Shown: positions 29,063-39,695 of the stretch, piece by piece
How positions within the stretch are numbered: position 1 is the first letter of the stretch
Layout of the letters: every line of letters starts with the position of its first letter
Origin: Spirochaetales bacterium
GTDB lineage: Bacteria; Spirochaetota; Spirochaetia; Treponematales; Treponemataceae
DNA: 64,000 bases
NCBI GenBank assembly: GCA_029098225.1
Contig: JAQXNX010000025.1
Span: 1 to 64,000 of the forward strand
Direction: 5' to 3'
Position numbers and translations under genes: made by a program
Notes under the pieces: model-generated
The model's database searches: none
What the model saw: the letters and a program-made list of their open reading frames with translations, nothing else
Told to the model about the DNA's origin: nothing

Positions 29063-29608
29063 ATGGGAAATAAAACAAAAATCAGAAGTACGACTATTCT
29101 TGCTGTCCGCAGAAACGGGCAGGTTGCTATGGCTGGCGATGGCCAGTGTACTTTGGGCGAGACTGTTTGTAAGGGAAACTCTCGTAAGGTTCGAAAAATA
29201 TATGACGGAAAGATTCTCACCGGTTTTGCGGGCTCTGTGGCAGATGCTTTTACTCTGCTGGACCGCTTTGAGGCTAAGGTGAAGGAATATAACGGCGACA
29301 TCATGCGCTCTGCTGTTGAGCTTGCAAAGGCCTGGCGTACAGACCGCACCCTGCAGAAGCTTGAGGCTATGCTTCTTGTTGCCGACAAAAAACAGATTCT
29401 TTTGATCAGCGGCGACGGCAACGTTATTGAGCCTGAGCACGATGCAATTGCAATTGGCAGCGGCGGAAATTACGCTTACTCTGCGGCCCTTGCTTATCTT
29501 GACAGCTCCGACCTGAGCGCCCGTGAGATTGCAGAACGCTCTCTTAAAATTGCCGGCAGTATCTGCATTTACACAAATCAGAATTTGACTGTTGAGACAT
29601 TGGAATAA
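29063..29608 (+). CDS. hslV: ATP-dependent protease subunit HslV (ClpQ)
   Basis: Proteasome-like peptidase that forms a double hexamer with HslU. The conserved [20 protein letters not shown] contains the nucleophile: by alignment with the mature TTI start of other HslV proteins it is Thr10, so a nine-residue propeptide MGNKTKIRS would need removal. [20 protein letters not shown] and [14 protein letters not shown] follow. Length 181 aa. TTGCCT-N17-TATATT (29027-29055) ends seven bases before the ATG, implying a leaderless transcript. Three bases separate it from hslU. Confidence 0.95.
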
Positions 29609-29611
29609 TTT

Positions 29612-31165
29612 ATGGAAAACACAGAAAACAAAACAGAACTTACACCAAAACAGATTGTAGAGAGACTGGACTCATATATCATCGGGCAGGAAAAGGCTAA
29701 GCGTGCCGTTGCAGTTGCCCTTCGTAACCGCTTCCGCCGCCTTAAGCTGCCGGAAGAAATCCGCGATGAAGTTGCTCCAAAAAATATTTTGATGATTGGA
29801 CCAACCGGCTGTGGTAAAACTGAAATTGCCCGCCGCCTTGCAAAGCTCTGCGGCGCCCCATTCCTCAAGGTTGAAGCTACAAAATATACTGAGGTCGGCT
29901 ACGTTGGCCGTGATGTAGAAAGCATGATCCGCGACCTTATGGCTGTAGGCTACAACGACGTTAAGGCCGAGATGGAAGAGCAGCTGCGTGAAAAGTCTGT
30001 GAGTGTGGTTGAAGAACGCCTTTTGGATCTGCTTTTGCCTGGAACCGGCGACGATAAAAAGAAGAAGAGCGACAAGCCATCTTCTGACTCTAAAATGGAA
30101 ATCAAGCCTCTGGGCTTTTTGAGCCAGCCAAGTGCCGGTGAAATCACTATAGATTTGAACAAGGTTGCTGCAGATATGCAGTCAGCTCTGAACGAGGCAA
30201 ATCAGGCTGCAGCAGACCAGCAGAAGGCCGACGAGGAAGCCGCAGAATCCGCCGAGGCTGCCGCAGAAAAAGAGCGGGAAAATCACACCCGCGAAAAGTT
30301 CCGCCAGATGCTGCGCGAAGGAAAACTTGAAGACCGCGAAGTTGAAATGGTTGTTCACCGCCCTCAGGGAATGCCGAATATGGAAATTATTGCCGGCGGC
30401 AGTATTGATGACCTTCAGAACAGCATGCAGGGAATCTTGAATATGATGAACGGTCAGGGCCGCGGCAAGAAGCGTAACATCACTGTAAAAGAAGCCCGCA
30501 AGATTCTTACCGAAGAAGTTCTCGATAACATGGTAGACCACGACAAGGTTGCCGACGAAGCCAAGAAGCGTGTAGAGCAGAGCGGAATTATTTTTATTGA
30601 TGAAATTGATAAGATTGCCGTTCACGGTGAAAGCCACGGACAGGACGTAAGTCGCGAAGGTGTTCAGCGAGATATCCTTCCAATCGTTGAAGGAAGTAAC
30701 GTTAATACAAAGTTCGGCGTAGTTGATACAACTCACATTCTCTTTATTGCAGCCGGTGCCTTCAGTGTAGCCGCTCCTAGTGACCTCATTCCGGAATTGC
30801 AGGGCCGCTTCCCGCTTCGTGTAGAGCTTGATTCCCTCCACAAGGATGATTTTAAACGCATTCTCAGCGAGCCAAAGAACAGCCTGATTATGCAGTATAC
30901 TTCGCTGCTCGAAACAGAAGGTGTAAAACTCGATATCACAGAGGACGCTCTCGACCGCATGAGTACAGTTGCAGAAGAGGTGAATGCCAGCGCAGAAAAC
31001 ATCGGTGCCCGCCGCCTGCACACAATCATGGAAAAGGTTCTTGCCGACATCAACTTTGAAGCAGACGAACACAAGGGCGAAACAATCAAAATTGACGCAG
31101 CCTACGTTGACGAGAAGCTTGAAGGTATCAGTCAGAACCAGGATTTGAGCAGATACATTCTGTAA
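29612..31165 (+). CDS. hslU: ATP-dependent protease ATPase subunit HslU (ClpY)
   Basis: AAA+ unfoldase that feeds substrates to HslV. Walker A GPTGCGKTEIARRLAKL near residue 57, the pore loop GYVGRD near 90, Walker B IIFIDEIDKIA near 327, and sensor residues in ENIGARRLHTIMEKVL. A long acidic/Ala-rich, probably coiled intermediate domain (about 140-240, with QQKADEEAAESAEAAAEKE) is larger than in E. coli, giving 517 aa. The C-terminus ends DLSRYIL, the tail that docks into HslV. C/G-rich codons, like topA. Confidence 0.95.
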   Translation: MENTENKTELTPKQIVERLDSYIIGQEKAKRAVAVALRNRFRRLKLPEEIRDEVAPKNILMIGPTGCGKTEIARRLAKLCGAPFLKVEATKYTEVGYVGRDVESMIRDLMAVGYNDVKAEMEEQLREKSVSVVEERLLDLLLPGTGDDKKKKSDKPSSDSKMEIKPLGFLSQPSAGEITIDLNKVAADMQSALNEANQAAADQQKADEEAAESAEAAAEKERENHTREKFRQMLREGKLEDREVEMVVHRPQGMPNMEIIAGGSIDDLQNSMQGILNMMNGQGRGKKRNITVKEARKILTEEVLDNMVDHDKVADEAKKRVEQSGIIFIDEIDKIAVHGESHGQDVSREGVQRDILPIVEGSNVNTKFGVVDTTHILFIAAGAFSVAAPSDLIPELQGRFPLRVELDSLHKDDFKRILSEPKNSLIMQYTSLLETEGVKLDITEDALDRMSTVAEEVNASAENIGARRLHTIMEKVLADINFEADEHKGETIKIDAAYVDEKLEGISQNQDLSRYIL

Positions 31166-31245: not shown

Positions 31246-33783
31246 ATGAAACACGGAAAATCAGCACTGTTTATTTTATTCTTTTTTTTATTTCTAATCA
31301 CAAATCTTACAGCAAAAGAAACACAAATCGCAAAAGATGTTAAAAAGGCTCTGAATTCTTATGCAGGACTGCCGGAACTTAAAAAACGCGGTTTTAATCT
31401 TAAATCACTTGATTCTGCCCAGACTGGAGAAGATATTTACAATGCCCTCTTGCCTTACATGATTCAGAACGGAATACCATTAGATAATGTTTTTAGCTTC
31501 TGTGATAAACAGTCTTATAAGACATATAATTTTAAGCAGCATTATACAGTTCATTTTACAGATGATTACGGCACAAAAGAAAAGCTCCTGAAAAAAGGCT
31601 ACAAGGAAGACGAAATCTTTGCATATTTTTCAAAAGGAAAAGACGTATACCGTGGTGGTCATTTTTCGTGGGATGTGGCAAAGAACTTTCCGGAAATTGG
31701 TCGATGGATGATGCCGCAGTTTCCGCCTCTTGTAGAAAAAAACTTCATTTACTTTTGGCCGGCATACTGGACCGAAAAGTTTTATCCAGATTACTGGGAA
31801 ACATCTTTATCAAAAGCTTATATCATTATTGATTTGCGTCTGGATCAGAGTGGTGACTGGCAGATTTCACAATTCTTTGACTACCTGGAAAACGGTGGTT
31901 ACAAAGGAGAACTGATAATTATAGTTGATTCCTCTTCTGACACAGGTGAAAGCCTTCTTGCCTATCGTATGACAAAGTGGCAGAACGGGAAAGAAGTTCC
32001 ACGAAACTTTAAGGTTACTTCAATCGGAGAAAATACTCTTGGCCAGGGAAACTTTTCCGGTGAATGGCAGAGGTTCGAAACAGACAGCTGCATACTCTGG
32101 GGAGTACGAAAAGAAGTCAACAAATGGAAAAGCTATGAAGAGGGCATTGGCATTATGCCTGATATCTGGGCAGAAACTCCAGAAGAAATTTTTAAGACTG
32201 TAGAAGATTTAACCGGAATAAAGAATTTTTCTGCAAGCACCGCAGTTTATCAGAAATTCATAAACAGTCTCATAATGCAAAATCAAAGCGGTTCAAACAC
32301 AAAGCTCCCACAGGCATTTTTCGATATTAAAGATAATAAATTATTTTTAGACAGTGTTTCTGATTATCTGGATTTGATGCAGGATTATTATAACAGGTCT
32401 GCATTTTTGAGAAGTAATAATTTAAAAAATATTTACCTTCCAGACAGTCTGCTTCAGATACAGGATTTAAAACTGCTTTTGGAGACCTGCAAAAAATTTA
32501 CAGCAATTCAAAAGAAATGGTATGACTTTTGTTCAGAAAATCTTGATAACCGCTCAGAATTTATTGATGTTCTCAGGGGCTCATACAATAACCTGTCTGT
32601 TGAAAAATATCTTACAGCCTTGAACAATGATGTAGAAATATCAATATTAAAAAGTAAGAAAGCAATCAGCGGAGTACAGGGGGATGATTACCTTCAAATG
32701 CTTGCTTCAACAATTGATTTTAAGCCTGATGTAAAAATGGCAAATCGTAAGCTTGAAGCTGTTTTTCTTATGTTCAACAAATATGACATTCTTGTAAACG
32801 AAGGTTTTGATATTCACAAAATGGATTACATGACAAAACCGGAAGAAATTCAAAATTATCTGCAGCAGTTTTTCCTTTCTAAAGAAGGTTACCCGCGCGA
32901 TCTTCATACTGGCATAAATATTACAACTAATGCGGGAACAAATTATCCTGTAAAGCAGACTTCGCGTTATATTGTTTTTAATGATGAATATGGAACAAAG
33001 GATCAGCTGAAGAAAAAAGGGTATGTGGAAGATGTAACTATGTTTTATTATCCGTATCACGATGGAAAATTCTGGACAAAAGAAAATAACTGGTGCACTG
33101 GAAAAATGATTATGGCAATGCCGAATAATCAGTATCAGGAAACTGAATACAAGAATCTTTATTACACTACAAAAAAATCTGTTTATTTTAAGTTTAATTC
33201 TTTTGCGCAATATATTGGTAATGGTCCGGAATTATCAGACCCTGAAATTGAAGAAATGATTGTAAGGCTTTCAAAGGAAACGGAAAAAGAAAATGTCATT
33301 TTTGATATTTCAAAAAATCCCGGAGGTTTTGGTCATACTACAGACAGAATTTCTAAGGCAGTAAAGCAGGCCGGTATTAAAAATGTTTATGTGGTTATGG
33401 ATAAAGGTGCTTTTTCATGTGCAGACCATTTTCCCTTTGATGCAAAATATAAAATTTTTGGCGGCCTGAATGTTACGCTTGTGGGCTATCCTACAATGGG
33501 CGGAAACGGTTCCGGTTCTCCGGAGCATTACATTATTGAGTTCCCTGACTTTAAGGTGTATGCAGATATTGCAACAAGCTTTACAAATTCAGAGACCGAG
33601 CATGAAGGCTGGGGTGGTACTCCCGATGTTTATGCAGATGATATGACTGATGCTTTAGGCGCAATCAGGACATTGACCGGAGATAACGACATTCAGCCTT
33701 TTGAAAGTGAAGAGCGAAAGCAGTTCAACAAAGGTAAAAAACGCTGGCTTGAGAACGATTTGATTTTTGAAATAAAGAATTAA
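31246..33783 (+). CDS. secreted tandem S41-like (tail-specific protease fold) protein
   Basis: An 845-residue exported protein (signal peptide MKHGKSALFIL...NLTAK). It appears to hold two related S41-like modules. Module 1 (about 100-330) has HFTDDYGTKEKLLKKGY, YIIIDLRLDQSG, LIIIVDSSSDTGES and MPDIWAETPEEIF. Module 2 (about 560-835) has VFNDEYGTKDQLKKKGY, VIFDISKNPGG, VYVVMDKGAFSCADHF and TPDVYADDMTDAL. The expected S41 serine is kept only in module 2 (FSCAD); module 1 has Asp there. A TTGCTG-N16-TATAAT promoter ends nine bases before the ATG. Substrate unknown; a paralog follows directly. Confidence 0.75.
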   Translation: MKHGKSALFILFFFLFLITNLTAKETQIAKDVKKALNSYAGLPELKKRGFNLKSLDSAQTGEDIYNALLPYMIQNGIPLDNVFSFCDKQSYKTYNFKQHYTVHFTDDYGTKEKLLKKGYKEDEIFAYFSKGKDVYRGGHFSWDVAKNFPEIGRWMMPQFPPLVEKNFIYFWPAYWTEKFYPDYWETSLSKAYIIIDLRLDQSGDWQISQFFDYLENGGYKGELIIIVDSSSDTGESLLAYRMTKWQNGKEVPRNFKVTSIGENTLGQGNFSGEWQRFETDSCILWGVRKEVNKWKSYEEGIGIMPDIWAETPEEIFKTVEDLTGIKNFSASTAVYQKFINSLIMQNQSGSNTKLPQAFFDIKDNKLFLDSVSDYLDLMQDYYNRSAFLRSNNLKNIYLPDSLLQIQDLKLLLETCKKFTAIQKKWYDFCSENLDNRSEFIDVLRGSYNNLSVEKYLTALNNDVEISILKSKKAISGVQGDDYLQMLASTIDFKPDVKMANRKLEAVFLMFNKYDILVNEGFDIHKMDYMTKPEEIQNYLQQFFLSKEGYPRDLHTGINITTNAGTNYPVKQTSRYIVFNDEYGTKDQLKKKGYVEDVTMFYYPYHDGKFWTKENNWCTGKMIMAMPNNQYQETEYKNLYYTTKKSVYFKFNSFAQYIGNGPELSDPEIEEMIVRLSKETEKENVIFDISKNPGGFGHTTDRISKAVKQAGIKNVYVVMDKGAFSCADHFPFDAKYKIFGGLNVTLVGYPTMGGNGSGSPEHYIIEFPDFKVYADIATSFTNSETEHEGWGGTPDVYADDMTDALGAIRTLTGDNDIQPFESEERKQFNKGKKRWLENDLIFEIKN

Positions 33784-33811
33784 TAAACATCAGGAAAGAC
33801 AGGTATTGAGT

Positions 33812-36373
33812 ATGAAAAAATCAGGAATTGCAGCAGTATTTATTTTTTTCTTTTTGATTTCATCACTTACTGCAAAAGAAAGCCAGATTGCAAAGGATGC
33901 AAAAAAAGCTTTAAATTCTTATGCCGGTTTGCCGGAGCTTAAAAATCGTGGATTTAATCTTAAATCAATTGATAATGTAAATTCAATGGATGAGGTTTAC
34001 AATCTTCTTTTGCCCTTTATGATTCAAAATGGGGTGCCTTTAGATAATGCAATTGGATTTTATGATAAACAGACTAATAAAACTTATGATTTTAAGCAGC
34101 ATTATACAGTTCATTTTACAGATGATTACGGTACAAAAGATCAGCTTTTGAAAAAGGGTTATAAGGAAGAGGAAATCTTTGCATATTTTTCAAAAGGGAA
34201 GAATGTTTACAGAGGTGGAAAGTTTTTTTGGGAAAAGGCTGAACCGGCAGCAGAGCTTGGTCAGTGGATGATGCCGCATTTTCCTCCGATAAGTGCTGAC
34301 CAGTTTATTTATTTCTGGCCGGCCTACTGGATGGAAAATTTTTATTCAGATTACTGGGAAAAGGCCCTCTCAAAATCTTATATCATAATTGACTTGCGTC
34401 TGGATCAGTCTGGTGGTGACTGGCAGATTTCTCAATTTTTTGATTATCTTGAACAGAAAGAATATAAGGGTGAAGTTATAATAATAATTGATTCTTCTGC
34501 TACAATTGGAGAGTCGCTGATTGCTTACCGTATGACAAAATGGCAGAACGGGAAAGAAATGCCACGAAGTTTTAAGTATTCGTTGATTGGCGAAAATACA
34601 CTTGGACTCCAGAATTTTTCCGGCGAATGGCAGAGGTTCGAAACAGACCAGACTATCTTCTGGGGAGTTCGTAAAGAAGTTAACAAATGGAAAAGTTATG
34701 AAGAAGGCGTTGGCGTAATGCCTGATATCTGGGCAGAAAATCCCGATGATATTTTTAAGACAGTTGAAGTTATAACCGGAATAAAAGGTTTTTCTTCATA
34801 TGTTGCAGCTTATCAGAACTTTATAAATACTCTTACAATTCAACAGAGTGTAAATTATTATGTGAACTTTAAGCTTCCTCAATTCTTTTTTAATCTGAAG
34901 GATGATAAAAAGTTTGTCCAGAATCTTAATGATTATCTGAATCTATTCTCTAAGTTTTTAAATCAAGCTTCCTTTCTTAGTAAAAATAATCTTTATGCTT
35001 TTTATATTCCAGGTTCATTCTATGAGATAAAAGAAGCAAAAACTTTCTTAGAAACTTTTTCGGAATTTATAAAAATTCAGAGTAAATGGTATGAGTTTTG
35101 CTTTGAAAATATTGAAAAACGAAGTGCAATCAAAGGCAGTTTTTTGAATCAGGTAGAATTTCAGTTAGGTAAACTTCCTGCTGAGCAGTATCTTGTTGAA
35201 TTGAATAAATTCATGGAAAAATCAGTTATTCAAAATCAGATTCAATTTGAAGACTATCAGGGCTTAGAAGGCATTAACTCTATGATTTCAAAATATAGAG
35301 TAGAGTTTAAGCCTGATGTAAAAGAAGAAAACAGAAGGCTCGAAAGTCTTTTTCTGATTTTTAATAAATATGACCTTCTTGTAAGCAAAGGGTTTGATAT
35401 TCATAAAATGGATTACATGACAACCCCTCAAGAAATTCTGAATTACATACAGCCGTTTTTCCTTTCTGAAGACGGGTATCCGCTTGATCTTCATACAGAA
35501 CTTGAGATGACTACAAAAGAAGGTCAGAAATATGTAATGAAGCAGACCACGCGTTATATTGTTTTTAATGATGAATATGGAACTAAGGAACAGCTTAAAA
35601 AGAAGGGCTATGTTGAAGATGTAACGATGTTCTATTATCCCTATCACGATGGTAAATTCTGGAAAAATGAAAAAAGCTGGCGTACCGGCAGAATGATAAT
35701 GGCAATGCCTGATTATGCTTATCAGGAAACTGAATCAAAGCATTTTTATTATACAACCAAAAAATCTGTTTACTTTAAGTTCCGGAATTTTCCGCATCCT
35801 ATTGGAAGTGGACCCGAAATTGAAAACTTTGAACTTGAAGAGATGATAGTTAAGCTTTCAAAAGAAACAGATAAGGAAAACGTAATTTTTGATATTTCAA
35901 AGAATGCAGGTGGCGATGCCTTTACTTCCCAAAGAATTTCTGAGGCTGTTCAAAAAGCGGGTATTAAAAATGTTTATATAATTATTGATAAAGGCGCATT
36001 CTCGTGTGGAGATCATTTTCCGCTTGGCGCTAAATCTTACTATTTCAAGGATCAGAATGTTACGCTTGTAGGCTATCCTACCAGAGGAGGAACTGGTTCC
36101 GGCGACAGAGAAAATTATATTATTGATTTCCCGGACTTTCAGGTTGATATAGATATTGCAACAAGCCTTCAAAATTCCGAAACCGAGCACGAAGGCTGGG
36201 GTGCAACTCCGGATGTTTATGCAGATGATTTAACTGACGCTCTTGGAGCAATAAAGGCTCTGACCGGCGACAACGAAATCAAGCCGTTTGAAACCGAAGA
36301 ACGTAAGCAGCACAACAAAGGCAAAAAGCGCTGGTTAGATGATGATTTAATCTTTGAAATTAATTTGAATTAA
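33812..36373 (+). CDS. second secreted tandem S41-like protein
   Basis: Close paralog of the preceding gene (853 aa), collinear from signal peptide (MKKSGIAAVFIF...SLTAKE) to the C-terminus, with the same two modules. Module 1 reads IIIIDSSATIGES at the would-be serine site and module 2 reads VYIIIDKGAFSCGDHF, so again only the C-terminal copy keeps the serine. The central 330-520 region is the most divergent between the paralogs. ATG at 33812 is chosen; a TTG two codons upstream is less likely. The two genes are 28 bases apart and probably cotranscribed. Confidence 0.75.
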   Translation: MKKSGIAAVFIFFFLISSLTAKESQIAKDAKKALNSYAGLPELKNRGFNLKSIDNVNSMDEVYNLLLPFMIQNGVPLDNAIGFYDKQTNKTYDFKQHYTVHFTDDYGTKDQLLKKGYKEEEIFAYFSKGKNVYRGGKFFWEKAEPAAELGQWMMPHFPPISADQFIYFWPAYWMENFYSDYWEKALSKSYIIIDLRLDQSGGDWQISQFFDYLEQKEYKGEVIIIIDSSATIGESLIAYRMTKWQNGKEMPRSFKYSLIGENTLGLQNFSGEWQRFETDQTIFWGVRKEVNKWKSYEEGVGVMPDIWAENPDDIFKTVEVITGIKGFSSYVAAYQNFINTLTIQQSVNYYVNFKLPQFFFNLKDDKKFVQNLNDYLNLFSKFLNQASFLSKNNLYAFYIPGSFYEIKEAKTFLETFSEFIKIQSKWYEFCFENIEKRSAIKGSFLNQVEFQLGKLPAEQYLVELNKFMEKSVIQNQIQFEDYQGLEGINSMISKYRVEFKPDVKEENRRLESLFLIFNKYDLLVSKGFDIHKMDYMTTPQEILNYIQPFFLSEDGYPLDLHTELEMTTKEGQKYVMKQTTRYIVFNDEYGTKEQLKKKGYVEDVTMFYYPYHDGKFWKNEKSWRTGRMIMAMPDYAYQETESKHFYYTTKKSVYFKFRNFPHPIGSGPEIENFELEEMIVKLSKETDKENVIFDISKNAGGDAFTSQRISEAVQKAGIKNVYIIIDKGAFSCGDHFPLGAKSYYFKDQNVTLVGYPTRGGTGSGDRENYIIDFPDFQVDIDIATSLQNSETEHEGWGATPDVYADDLTDALGAIKALTGDNEIKPFETEERKQHNKGKKRWLDDDLIFEINLN

Positions 36374-36454: not shown

Positions 36455-37201
36455 TTATCTGAAAAGCTGCGGATAATCTGCGGCTTTTTTTATTGCTTCT
36501 TCAAGTGTCAGCCCTGTAAAATCCTGGGCACCCAGCCAGCGGCCGCTCTTTTTGTCATCAACAAAAGCACCGACTACGATTCCAGGAATTACGCTGTCGG
36601 GGTCGTTAGGGGCGTTTGGTCCGCCGAGGTCTGTGCGGCACCAGCCCGGGTCTGCGAGGTTGATGCAGACATCTGTGCCGTTTAGTTTTCCGGCAAGGTC
36701 ACTTGTTACTTTATCGAGGGCGGCTTTACTTGCACTGTAGCCTGCCTGTTCCGGTTCATTACGGATTCCGCTTGTTGTGTTGATTACCCGGCCAAAGCCT
36801 CTTTCAATCATCTTTGGAATAAAGTGATAGCAAAGCATCATCGGGGCAATTGTATTGATTACAAAGCTCTTTTCGTAATCCTCTGCCGGAGTTTTCCAGT
36901 AGTCGGTGCGATAAGCAATCTGCACTGCGGCATCGTTGAAAAGAATGTCGACAGGTTTGCCTTTTGCGTCAATTTCTTCTATCAGCTTTTGAACCTGTGA
37001 AAGGTCACTGAGTTCTGCTGCTACATCGTAGGCTTCTACGCCCATTGCTTTGACCTCTGAGAGTACGGCAGCAGTGTGCTCAAGCGAGCGGCTATGCAAA
37101 ATCAGATTACAGCCTTTTCCAGCCATAAACTTTGCGATTCTATAACCGATTCCTCGGTTTGCGCCGGTAACCAGCGCCCATTTTCCTTTTACGTCTGTCA
37201 T
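36455..37201 (-). CDS. short-chain dehydrogenase/reductase
   Basis: NAD(P)-dependent oxidoreductase of the classical SDR type, 248 aa. Cofactor motif LVTGANRGIGYRIA near residue 10, LFNDAAVQ in place of the usual NNAG, catalytic Ser in TTSG and the YSASK pair near 160. The ATG at 37201 is preceded by GGAG; an upstream ATG at 37213 would place that site inside the coding region. Substrate cannot be told. C/G-rich codons. It is the last gene of a leftward run with an epimerase-like protein and an alcohol dehydrogenase. Confidence 0.88.
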   Translation of the reverse strand: MTDVKGKWALVTGANRGIGYRIAKFMAGKGCNLILHSRSLEHTAAVLSEVKAMGVEAYDVAAELSDLSQVQKLIEEIDAKGKPVDILFNDAAVQIAYRTDYWKTPAEDYEKSFVINTIAPMMLCYHFIPKMIERGFGRVINTTSGIRNEPEQAGYSASKAALDKVTSDLAGKLNGTDVCINLADPGWCRTDLGGPNAPNDPDSVIPGIVVGAFVDDKKSGRWLGAQDFTGLTLEEAIKKAADYPQLFR

Positions 37202-37361
37202 TATTTTCTCCAAAAATAATATAAAAACAAAGATAAAAAGGATAAAAAGATAATAAAGATAAGAATTTCCTAACTGTACAACCAGGGAACTTCAAAAGTT
37301 AAATGAGTTTTAAAACTTCAGCGCTATCTTTAAAATCCTTTTCATCTTTTATATCTTGTTT

Positions 37362-38357
37362 CTATTTCATCCTTTCAACTATCTCATCGCACCACTTGTC
37401 AAAGTCCGGGTCTTCTACCTGGCATTCACTGTGGGCGAGAACGTATTCTATTGTCTCTTTGATTCCCTGATCTGCACGTTTTGTTGCGACAAAATCAGGA
37501 ACAAGAGCTTTTAATTTACTGCAGTCAAAAACAACCGAGTTTGCCTTGTCACCAATCAGGCTGCCGGTAAAATCATAATCAGAATGACTTGCAAGATAGG
37601 TCGAAGAAACATACACCGGTTTAAGTTCAACGCCAAGCGATGCTGCAATACACTGGTAAATCTGATTCCAGGTTACGCTTTCGTCGCTCATAATCTGAAC
37701 AGCTTCGCCAATTGCGTGAATGTTTCCCATTAAGCCAACAAAGCCCTTTGCAAAATCAGAATTGTGGGTAATAGTCCAGAGACTTGTTCCGTCTCCGTGA
37801 ATAATCACAGGCTTTCCTTCTTTGATTCTCTTTACAACCTGCCAGCTTCCCTTGTCGCCGTGAACTCCGAGAGGTACGCTTCTTTCATCATAAGTGTGAC
37901 TCGGGCGGATAATTGTTATAGGGAAGTTTTCTTCGCGGTAAAGTTTCATCAGATAGTCTTCGCAGGCAATCTTGTTGCGGGAATATTCCCAGTAAGGATT
38001 TGCAAGCGGAGTTTTTTCGCTGATTACATAGTTGCTACACGGCTTCTGGTAAGCCGAGGCAGAAGAGATATACATAAACTGACGTACCTTTCCCTTAAGA
38101 AGGCGGAAGTCTCGCTCCAGCTGAGCAGGTACAAAGCCGATAAAGTCGCAGGCAACGTCAAACTGCATTCCTGCCAGTTTTGCTGCTGCTGCGGCCTCAT
38201 CATTTATATCTACCGTAATAAAATGTGCGCCCTTAAGACGCGGGTCTGTATTACGGTTTCCTCTATTAATAAGGTACAGTTCCCAGCCTTTTTCCAGCAG
38301 CAGCTTTGAAATTGCCATGCTGATTGTGCCGGTTCCGCCTATGAATAATGCTTTCAT
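37362..38357 (-). CDS. NAD-dependent epimerase/dehydratase family protein
   Basis: Extended SDR of 331 aa with the Rossmann motif FIGGTGTISMAIS at the N-terminus, YISSASAYQKP and the active-site Tyr-x-x-x-Lys in YSRNKIACE near residue 140, then IIRPSHTYDER. These suggest a sugar-nucleotide or related epimerase/reductase, but the substrate is unknown. The ATG at 38357 with GGAG upstream is the start; a longer frame that begins at 38504 is translated from the GC-rich repeat and is rejected. Confidence 0.85.
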   Translation of the reverse strand: MKALFIGGTGTISMAISKLLLEKGWELYLINRGNRNTDPRLKGAHFITVDINDEAAAAAKLAGMQFDVACDFIGFVPAQLERDFRLLKGKVRQFMYISSASAYQKPCSNYVISEKTPLANPYWEYSRNKIACEDYLMKLYREENFPITIIRPSHTYDERSVPLGVHGDKGSWQVVKRIKEGKPVIIHGDGTSLWTITHNSDFAKGFVGLMGNIHAIGEAVQIMSDESVTWNQIYQCIAASLGVELKPVYVSSTYLASHSDYDFTGSLIGDKANSVVFDCSKLKALVPDFVATKRADQGIKETIEYVLAHSECQVEDPDFDKWCDEIVERMK

Positions 38358-38383
38358 AAGATCTCCATAATTAATTATAAAAT

Positions 38384-38504
38384 GCGTGAGGGATTGTAGG
38401 GGGGCAACCGAAGGTTGCGTACCGCCACCGCAACGAAGTGAGGAGGCTGGAGCGACAGCGGAACCCCGAAAAGCCCGACGGCAGCTGGCTGCCGTCACGC
38501 CCAT
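38384..38504. repeat. GC-rich dispersed repeat, copy 2
   Basis: Begins GCGTGAGGGATTGTAGGGG and ends GAACCCCGAAAAGCCCGACG ... CACGCCCA, the same outer blocks as 26279-26391, with a different interior (CAACCGAAGGTTG, GGCAGCTGGCTGCC hairpins). It fills the gap between the epimerase-like gene and the alcohol dehydrogenase. Confidence 0.85.
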
Positions 38505-38510
38505 TTGTTT

Positions 38511-39695
38511 TTACAGACTAGCCTTAGCGGCGATTTTGTAGATTTCTGCGATATCCTCCGAACTCAACTTTACAAAGCCGCCGGTTGTCGCACCCTCGGC
38601 TAAGCCAAACTTCTTTACGAGGGTAGGGATATCTTCTTCCTTTGCACCAAGCTCTGCGAAATTAATCGGCATACCGATGCTGTGCAGGAACTCGCGGAAA
38701 CGTTTGATTCCCTCTCGGGCAGTTGCTTCTGGATCCGCAAAATCCATCTTGCAGCCCCAGACTCTTGTAGCCCACTGAGCAAAACGCATTACATCGTGCT
38801 TGTAAACAAAATCCATCCAGGCAGGCATAATTACCGCAAGACCGGCACCGTGAGCGCAGTCATACAAACCGCTAAGTTCATGCTCAATTCCGTGGCTGTT
38901 CCAGTCCTGGTCGCGACCAACTCCTACGATGTTATTGTGGGCAACCATTCCGGCCCACATGATGTTAGCGCGGGCTTCATAATCATTTGCGTCAGCAATT
39001 ACCTTTGGAGTTTCGTGAATCATTGCCATCAAAACTGCCTCACACAAACGATCGGTAGTTTCTACATTCTTTGTGTTAGTAAAGTAACGCTCGCAAACGT
39101 GAGCCATAATATCAGTTGCACCACAGGCTGTCTGGTAGGCAGGCAGAGTCTGTGTTAATGCCGGATTCAAAATAGAAAATTTCGGACGAATACATTCACC
39201 GCTGGCCCCGCGCTTTACCATGCCGTCTTTTTTAGTAATTACAGAGTCGCCTGAGCCCTCGCTTCCCGCAGCCGCAATAGTCAAAACAGTTCCAACCGGA
39301 ACCGCAGCTTTTGCCGCAGCCTTTCCGCTGTAAAAATCCCAGAAGTCTCCGTCGTAGCAGACACCCATAGCAATAGCCTTTGCGCTGTCAATTACAGAAC
39401 CGCCACCTACAGCAAGAATGAAATCAACGCCTTCGCGCTTACACAAATCAATTCCCTGATAAACTAAATCATCAAGCGGGTTAGGGTGAACGCCGCCAAG
39501 CTCAACAAATGTAAGACCTGCTCCCTTTAAAGACTCGCGAACACGTCCAAGCAGACCAGACTTCTCAGCAGATTTTCCGCCAAAGTGCAGCAGAACTTTA
39601 CTTCCGCCAAATTCCTTTACCAGATTTCCGGCATTCTGCTCAGTATCTTTTCCAAAAACAAATTTAGTTGGACTGTAAAATGTAAAGTTTTCCAT
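38511..39695 (-). CDS. iron-containing alcohol dehydrogenase (butanol dehydrogenase type)
   Basis: Group III metal-dependent dehydrogenase, 394 aa, probably NADPH-linked reduction of an aldehyde to an alcohol in fermentation. Landmarks: FYSPTKFVFGKDTE, nucleotide-binding VGGGSVIDSAKAIA near residue 95, and metal ligands in TDIMAHVCERYF and HGIEHELSGLYDCAHGAGLAV. These fit the BdhA/YugJ branch. AGGAGA precedes the ATG. First gene of the leftward run ending at the SDR. Confidence 0.92.
   Translation of the reverse strand: MENFTFYSPTKFVFGKDTEQNAGNLVKEFGGSKVLLHFGGKSAEKSGLLGRVRESLKGAGLTFVELGGVHPNPLDDLVYQGIDLCKREGVDFILAVGGGSVIDSAKAIAMGVCYDGDFWDFYSGKAAAKAAVPVGTVLTIAAAGSEGSGDSVITKKDGMVKRGASGECIRPKFSILNPALTQTLPAYQTACGATDIMAHVCERYFTNTKNVETTDRLCEAVLMAMIHETPKVIADANDYEARANIMWAGMVAHNNIVGVGRDQDWNSHGIEHELSGLYDCAHGAGLAVIMPAWMDFVYKHDVMRFAQWATRVWGCKMDFADPEATAREGIKRFREFLHSIGMPINFAELGAKEEDIPTLVKKFGLAEGATTGGFVKLSSEDIAEIYKIAAKASL

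Follow-up and report, generated by a model that had tools for sequence, protein, structure and literature searches.

The whole stretch of 64,000 nucleotides analyzed here (the window) is part of a Treponema genome, the nearest named records being from uncultured Treponema, including two from water-buffalo rumen and omasum, and contains two adjacent genes, designated W1 and W2. In both predicted products a signal peptide precedes an N-terminal module of about 300 residues (N-module), which is joined by a linker of 150-190 residues to a C-terminal module of about 350 residues (C-module). The modules were aligned in 33 rows from the source and related genomes, namely 17 N-modules and 16 "active modules" (7 C-modules and 9 single-module relatives). 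The features of the locus are as follows:

29063..31165, forward strand: hslV and hslU, conserved left neighbours (synteny in relatives)
31246..33783, forward strand: W1, predicted secreted fusion of a dead S41 module and an S41 module with an active site, 845 aa (ORF; Pfam S41 match, E 4e-7; AF2 model, pLDDT 83.6)
31246..31314, forward strand: W1 signal peptide, likely cleaved after LTA (by inspection of the sequence; the model has a helix at 4-21)
31315..32271, forward strand: W1 N-terminal dead S41 module, residues about 24-342 (AF2 model of the module folded alone, pLDDT 92.4, pTM 0.90; S41 structural matches; catalytic columns lost)
31489..31491, forward strand: W1 Val82, which occupies the catalytic His position (alignment)
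31930..31950, forward strand: W1 SSSDTGE loop (residues 229-235), which aligns with the nucleophile Ser site and is shorter by one residue than its counterpart in active modules
32272..32727, forward strand: W1 helical linker, which contains two repeats, each about 45 residues long (model; fast evolving, 39% identity to W2)
32728..33780, forward strand: W1 C-terminal S41 module (residues 495-845), in which the catalytic residues are intact (PF03572; S41 chains, Z 9-13)
32905..32907, forward strand: W1 His554, predicted general base (His in 16/16 active modules and 0/17 N-modules)
33322..33327, forward strand: W1 Gly693-Gly694, S41 Gly-Gly loop (each Gly in 16/16 active modules and 7/17 N-modules)
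33415..33417, forward strand: W1 Ser724 of AFSCAD, predicted nucleophile (16/16 active modules)
33604..33606, forward strand: W1 Glu787 of EGxGxxPD, predicted third catalytic residue (16/16 active modules and 17/17 N-modules)
33806..36373, forward strand: W2, tandem paralogue of W1, 855 aa from TTG (ORF)
33875..34831, forward strand: W2 N-terminal dead S41 module, with Ala82 at the His place and an SSATIGE loop (alignment)
35315..36370, forward strand: W2 C-terminal S41 module, with His563, Gly702-Gly703, Ser733 and Glu796 (Pfam, alignment)
36455..39695, reverse strand: SDR, epimerase-like and Fe-alcohol dehydrogenase genes, conserved right neighbours (synteny in relatives)

The two reading frames are separated by 22 bases and are probably co-transcribed; for W2, an ATG at 33812, which gives a protein of 853 aa, is a more likely start than the TTG. 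By inspection, both N-termini have a Sec-type signal peptide (MKHGKSALFILFFFLFLITNLTA-KE). The proteins are 66-67% identical overall, with 75% identity in the N-module and 72% in the C-module, so that the adjacent paralogs described from the sequence alone were confirmed. Their further duplication as neighbouring genes is also real, but it was seen in this genome only, as a single gene occupies the site between hslU and SDR in three relatives (G204, G127 and G216). Repeats of about 45 residues (LPxxFxxIKDxKxF type) were observed in the linkers, two each in W1, W2 and the G124 protein, one in other S41-type genes and several in the transglutaminase-type genes described below. Rfam and tRNA scans of the 64-kb window gave no matches.

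Several lines of evidence suggest that both modules are S41 folds and related to each other. When the N- and C-modules of one protein were compared by BLASTP, E values of 3e-9 (W1) and 7e-17 (W2; 26% identity over 318 aa) were obtained, and local-alignment scores exceeded those of shuffled sequences by 12 and 22 s.d., respectively, whereas a control comparison of N-module and linker fell at -0.9 s.d. PF03572 (Peptidase_S41) matched W1 and W2 with 30.2 and 29.8 bits (curated cut-off 24 bits), and the best stretch was the C-module in both. In the model of full-length W1 (pTM 0.63), the 42 top structural matches were S41-fold chains, comprising proteases and IRBP modules (Z 9.1-12.8), nearly all of which aligned to the C-module alone; the best was 3k50 (Z 12.8, rmsd 4.8, 216 residues aligned). 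The W1 N-module folded alone likewise had S41-fold chains as its 40 top matches (Z 7.4-11.7, against 5.7 for the next unrelated fold), most of them spanning the whole module, and the best was 4l8k (Z 11.7, rmsd 3.8, 223 residues aligned). Searches against PDB chains found nothing real with the W1 sequence and no match with the N-module profile, and a profile of the C-modules gave only weak matches. As the best Pfam S41 stretches also fall in the C-module, the S41 identity of the N-module rests on its fold and on homology to active modules, including a profile match to an active single-module S41 protein (E 1.8e-37). The sequence-only reading had named halves that were not S41 folds, or were unrelated, as the outcome that would count against it; by structure matching both halves were S41-like, and they were mutually homologous.

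The two modules differ in their catalytic residues. Thirteen alignment columns were near-invariant in the active modules; the N-modules keep nine of them, and those lost are the His, the two Gly and the Ser. At the His place the 17 N-modules have V, A, T, S or L. In the C-modules of W1 and W2 the serine site reads AFSCAD and AFSCGD, with the nucleophile three residues before a conserved acidic residue, as in all 16 active modules, whereas the N-module loops read SSSDTGE and SSATIGE. None of the 17 N-modules has a Ser at this E-3 place, although the Ser column is the less certain one because an alternative gap placement gives a Ser to three of them, at E-2 within the shortened loop. The restriction of the S41-type serine to the C-terminal module had been noticed from the sequence alone, and the suggested pairing of a dead N-terminal with an intact C-terminal site was supported; the catalytic His, which only the C-module has, was missed at that time. 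These alignments suggest that the N-module is a pseudo-enzyme of S41 fold rather than a peptidase, and that the C-module is probably a secreted serine peptidase. Elsewhere in the same genome, a single-module lipoprotein relative with intact His and Ser was observed on contig C10 (L003:1489-2367, reverse strand).

The tail-specific proteases CtpA, CtpB and Prc (Tsp) use a Ser/Lys dyad and have a PDZ domain. They share the S41 core fold with both modules; however, a Ser/Lys mechanism was rejected for the C-modules because the Lys of GKG is absent, the motif here being PT[MRK]GG[NT] with GGx in place of GKG and a conserved His instead. The residues H554, S724 and E787, assigned by alignment and invariant across the active modules, are of the His/Ser/Glu type, and resemble the catalytic set His105/Ser499/Glu558 of the Chlamydia protease CPAF (CT_858, PDB 3dor) (PMC8787135), the equivalence of Glu787 and Glu558 being based on motif and spacing, not coordinates. 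CPAF matches both modules in structure, but it has one protease domain and a cryptic PDZ-like domain (PMC4734761), in place of two modules of which one is dead. The nisin resistance protein NSR (PDB 4y68), an S41-type protein with a His98/Ser236 dyad (PMC4698656), also has the His/Ser pair and matches the C-module (Z 12.5) and the N-module (Z 10.0), but is a nisin-specific single module. By analogy with CPAF or NSR, the C-module would cleave peptides with Ser724 as nucleophile and His554 as base, together with Glu787.

The residues that are conserved in the N-modules also raise the alternative that these are enzymes whose site has migrated, formed by W1 His99 (31540-31542), the conserved Glu and a Ser or Thr at the D+2 place of the modified loop. 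All 17 N-modules, but none of the active modules, have His99; Glu299 is retained in 17/17, and a Ser or Thr lies two residues past Asp228 in 16/17. However, one N-module has Asn at the D+2 place, most N-modules have a disrupted Gly-Gly loop, and we know of no S41 enzyme with such an arrangement, which makes a migrated site very improbable.

The dead module is under purifying selection, like the active one. By the NG86 method, dN/dS was 0.12-0.25 for the N-module and 0.07-0.27 for the C-terminal domain; the low N-module values imply that the dead module is maintained. For the linker, dN/dS reached 0.41-0.70 in three distant pairs. Single values are rough in distant pairs, where dS is near or above 1, but close pairs agree.

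The search for homologs and genomic context proposed by the sequence-only reading revealed a wider distribution of the dead module. Among 196 genomes of the genus, an N-module profile detected 17 N-modules in 15 genomes, all with at least 439 bits, the next match below them being an active single-module protein with 129 bits, and all 17 sit in long frames of 645-1189 codons. Their C-terminal partners are an S41 C-module in seven genes (one with an in-frame stop), a transglutaminase-like domain with complete Cys/His/Asp motifs in eight, three FGE-like domains in one and a second, different S41 subtype in one. Partners also differ at corresponding genomic sites. At the site between hslU and SDR, the position of W1 and W2 in the window is taken in genome G216 by the FGE fusion (immediate flanks 85-91% identical), and at a second site an S41 partner in G124 corresponds to a transglutaminase partner in G062 (flanks 93% identical). 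Because most of the genomes are incomplete drafts, many of them metagenomic, some fusions could be misassembled; yet the eight transglutaminase fusions recur. Viral contigs and phage records were also searched, and no relative of the N-module was found.

Two genes at the hslU-SDR site have features of their own. The G216 gene (L046:5117-8677, reverse strand) encodes a 1187-aa protein in which the dead S41 module is followed by the three FGE-sulfatase-like domains, which by eye are without the usual end motif of catalytic FGE. The W1 orthologue of G204 (L013:1542-3961), located between hslU and SDR, has an in-frame TAA early in the C-module core with the frame open beyond it, which reflects either an assembly error or a pseudogene.

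The module tree bears on the internal duplication that had been proposed from the sequence alone as the origin of the two halves. In a maximum-likelihood tree, the N-modules formed one clade (support 100/99). The C-modules did not: six grouped with single-module active S41 relatives and the seventh (G204b) with another S41 subtype, and a single C clade was rejected (AU p 1.5e-5). A constraint joining the N-modules with the six C-modules was also rejected (AU p 0.013), which is moderate evidence for their separation because some single-module branches are long. With the N-module clade placed apart from the C-modules, a fusion between two divergent S41 lineages is a moderately better fit than duplication in place, and the proposed internal duplication was not upheld. 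A plain duplication after which one site decayed and the dead half persisted just for the folding stability of a two-module protease would account for halves that are homologous over their full length; given that the N- and C-modules are not closest relatives, that nine genes have the dead module without an S41 partner and that purifying selection on the dead half equals that on the active half, we regard such a history as improbable.

The best explanation, to which we assign a probability of about 0.55, is that W1 and W2 are secreted proteins in which a dead S41 adaptor module precedes a His/Ser/Glu-type S41 catalytic module, with a helical-repeat linker between them. The dead module would have lost cleavage while keeping the predicted S41 groove, and may act as a putative adaptor for binding or scaffolding, by which a ligand, substrate or partner is held at the place of action of the exchangeable C-terminal domain. 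Because related bacteria join the same dead module to quite different C-terminal domains, it resembles a reusable part with a binding or scaffold function. The conserved structure of the dead module could also serve folding, dimerisation or autoinhibition alone.

Pseudoenzyme halves often regulate active partners. The dead module might therefore be an intramolecular regulator that packs on the catalytic module or dimerises, keeping the protease off until triggered, with no substrate binding; CPAF, for instance, is held inactive by an internal segment (PMC4734761), and in the present proteins both modules are conserved and the linker is of variable length. A common role in the specific inhibition of an S41 partner is nevertheless unlikely because the same module is joined to unrelated folds (transglutaminase-like and FGE-like), and the pTM of the whole-chain model gives no confident arrangement of the modules, so that regulation appears unlikely.

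For the adaptor reading, a precedent in which dead S41 modules have become binding modules is RBP3/IRBP, which has tandem S41-fold modules of about 300 aa that have lost catalytic residues and bind lipophilic ligands (PMC11750400). Its modules match both modules of W1 in structure (N-module versus 7jti, Z 9.5; versus 4lur, Z 9.2), but RBP3 is a vertebrate carrier of four dead modules with no active module or other domain types, whereas here one of two modules is intact. Such similarity also points to another possibility, i.e., that the ligand of the dead module is not a peptide but a small hydrophobic or cell-envelope molecule, by analogy with the retinoids and fatty acids bound by RBP3 modules; this is quite unlikely considering that transglutaminase-like partners suggest protein substrates. 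The earlier impression that no named family has this organization was thus partly correct: the proteins belong to family S41 (PF03572; MEROPS S41), as the C-modules are above the Pfam cut-off and both modules have the S41 fold, and dead S41 tandems are known in RBP3/IRBP, but the N-module is without catalytic residues and the layout of two modules and a helical linker is in none of the Pfam and NCBIfam models found. Neither a dead/active S41 tandem nor an S41-transglutaminase fusion was described in the literature searched, with subscription journals mostly outside its coverage.

A broader proposal, held tentatively and at somewhat less than even odds, is that the dead S41 module and its helical-repeat stalk are a standard N-terminal carrier in rumen treponemes, and that the C-terminal domains are exchanged by recombination at fixed sites. 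If true, it would represent a secreted system of modular construction with a pseudo-protease at its base, the exchanged domains being an S41 protease, a transglutaminase-like cysteine enzyme and FGE-like domains. S41 pseudo-proteases have so far been known chiefly from vertebrate RBP3; a bacterial clade that has lost exactly the catalytic residues, is under selection and has several types of partners would show how a protease fold is converted to a binding module of general use. The intact S41 module in the tandem would serve as a built-in active control for any remaining binding by the dead groove.

In addition, an uneven pattern of divergence was observed among close transglutaminase-type genes. 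Comparison of L048:1280-3655 with L055 and L056 showed identities of mostly 95-99% in the N-module and linker, 62-75% in the first part of the transglutaminase-like domain and then about 90% again, a recombination mosaic.
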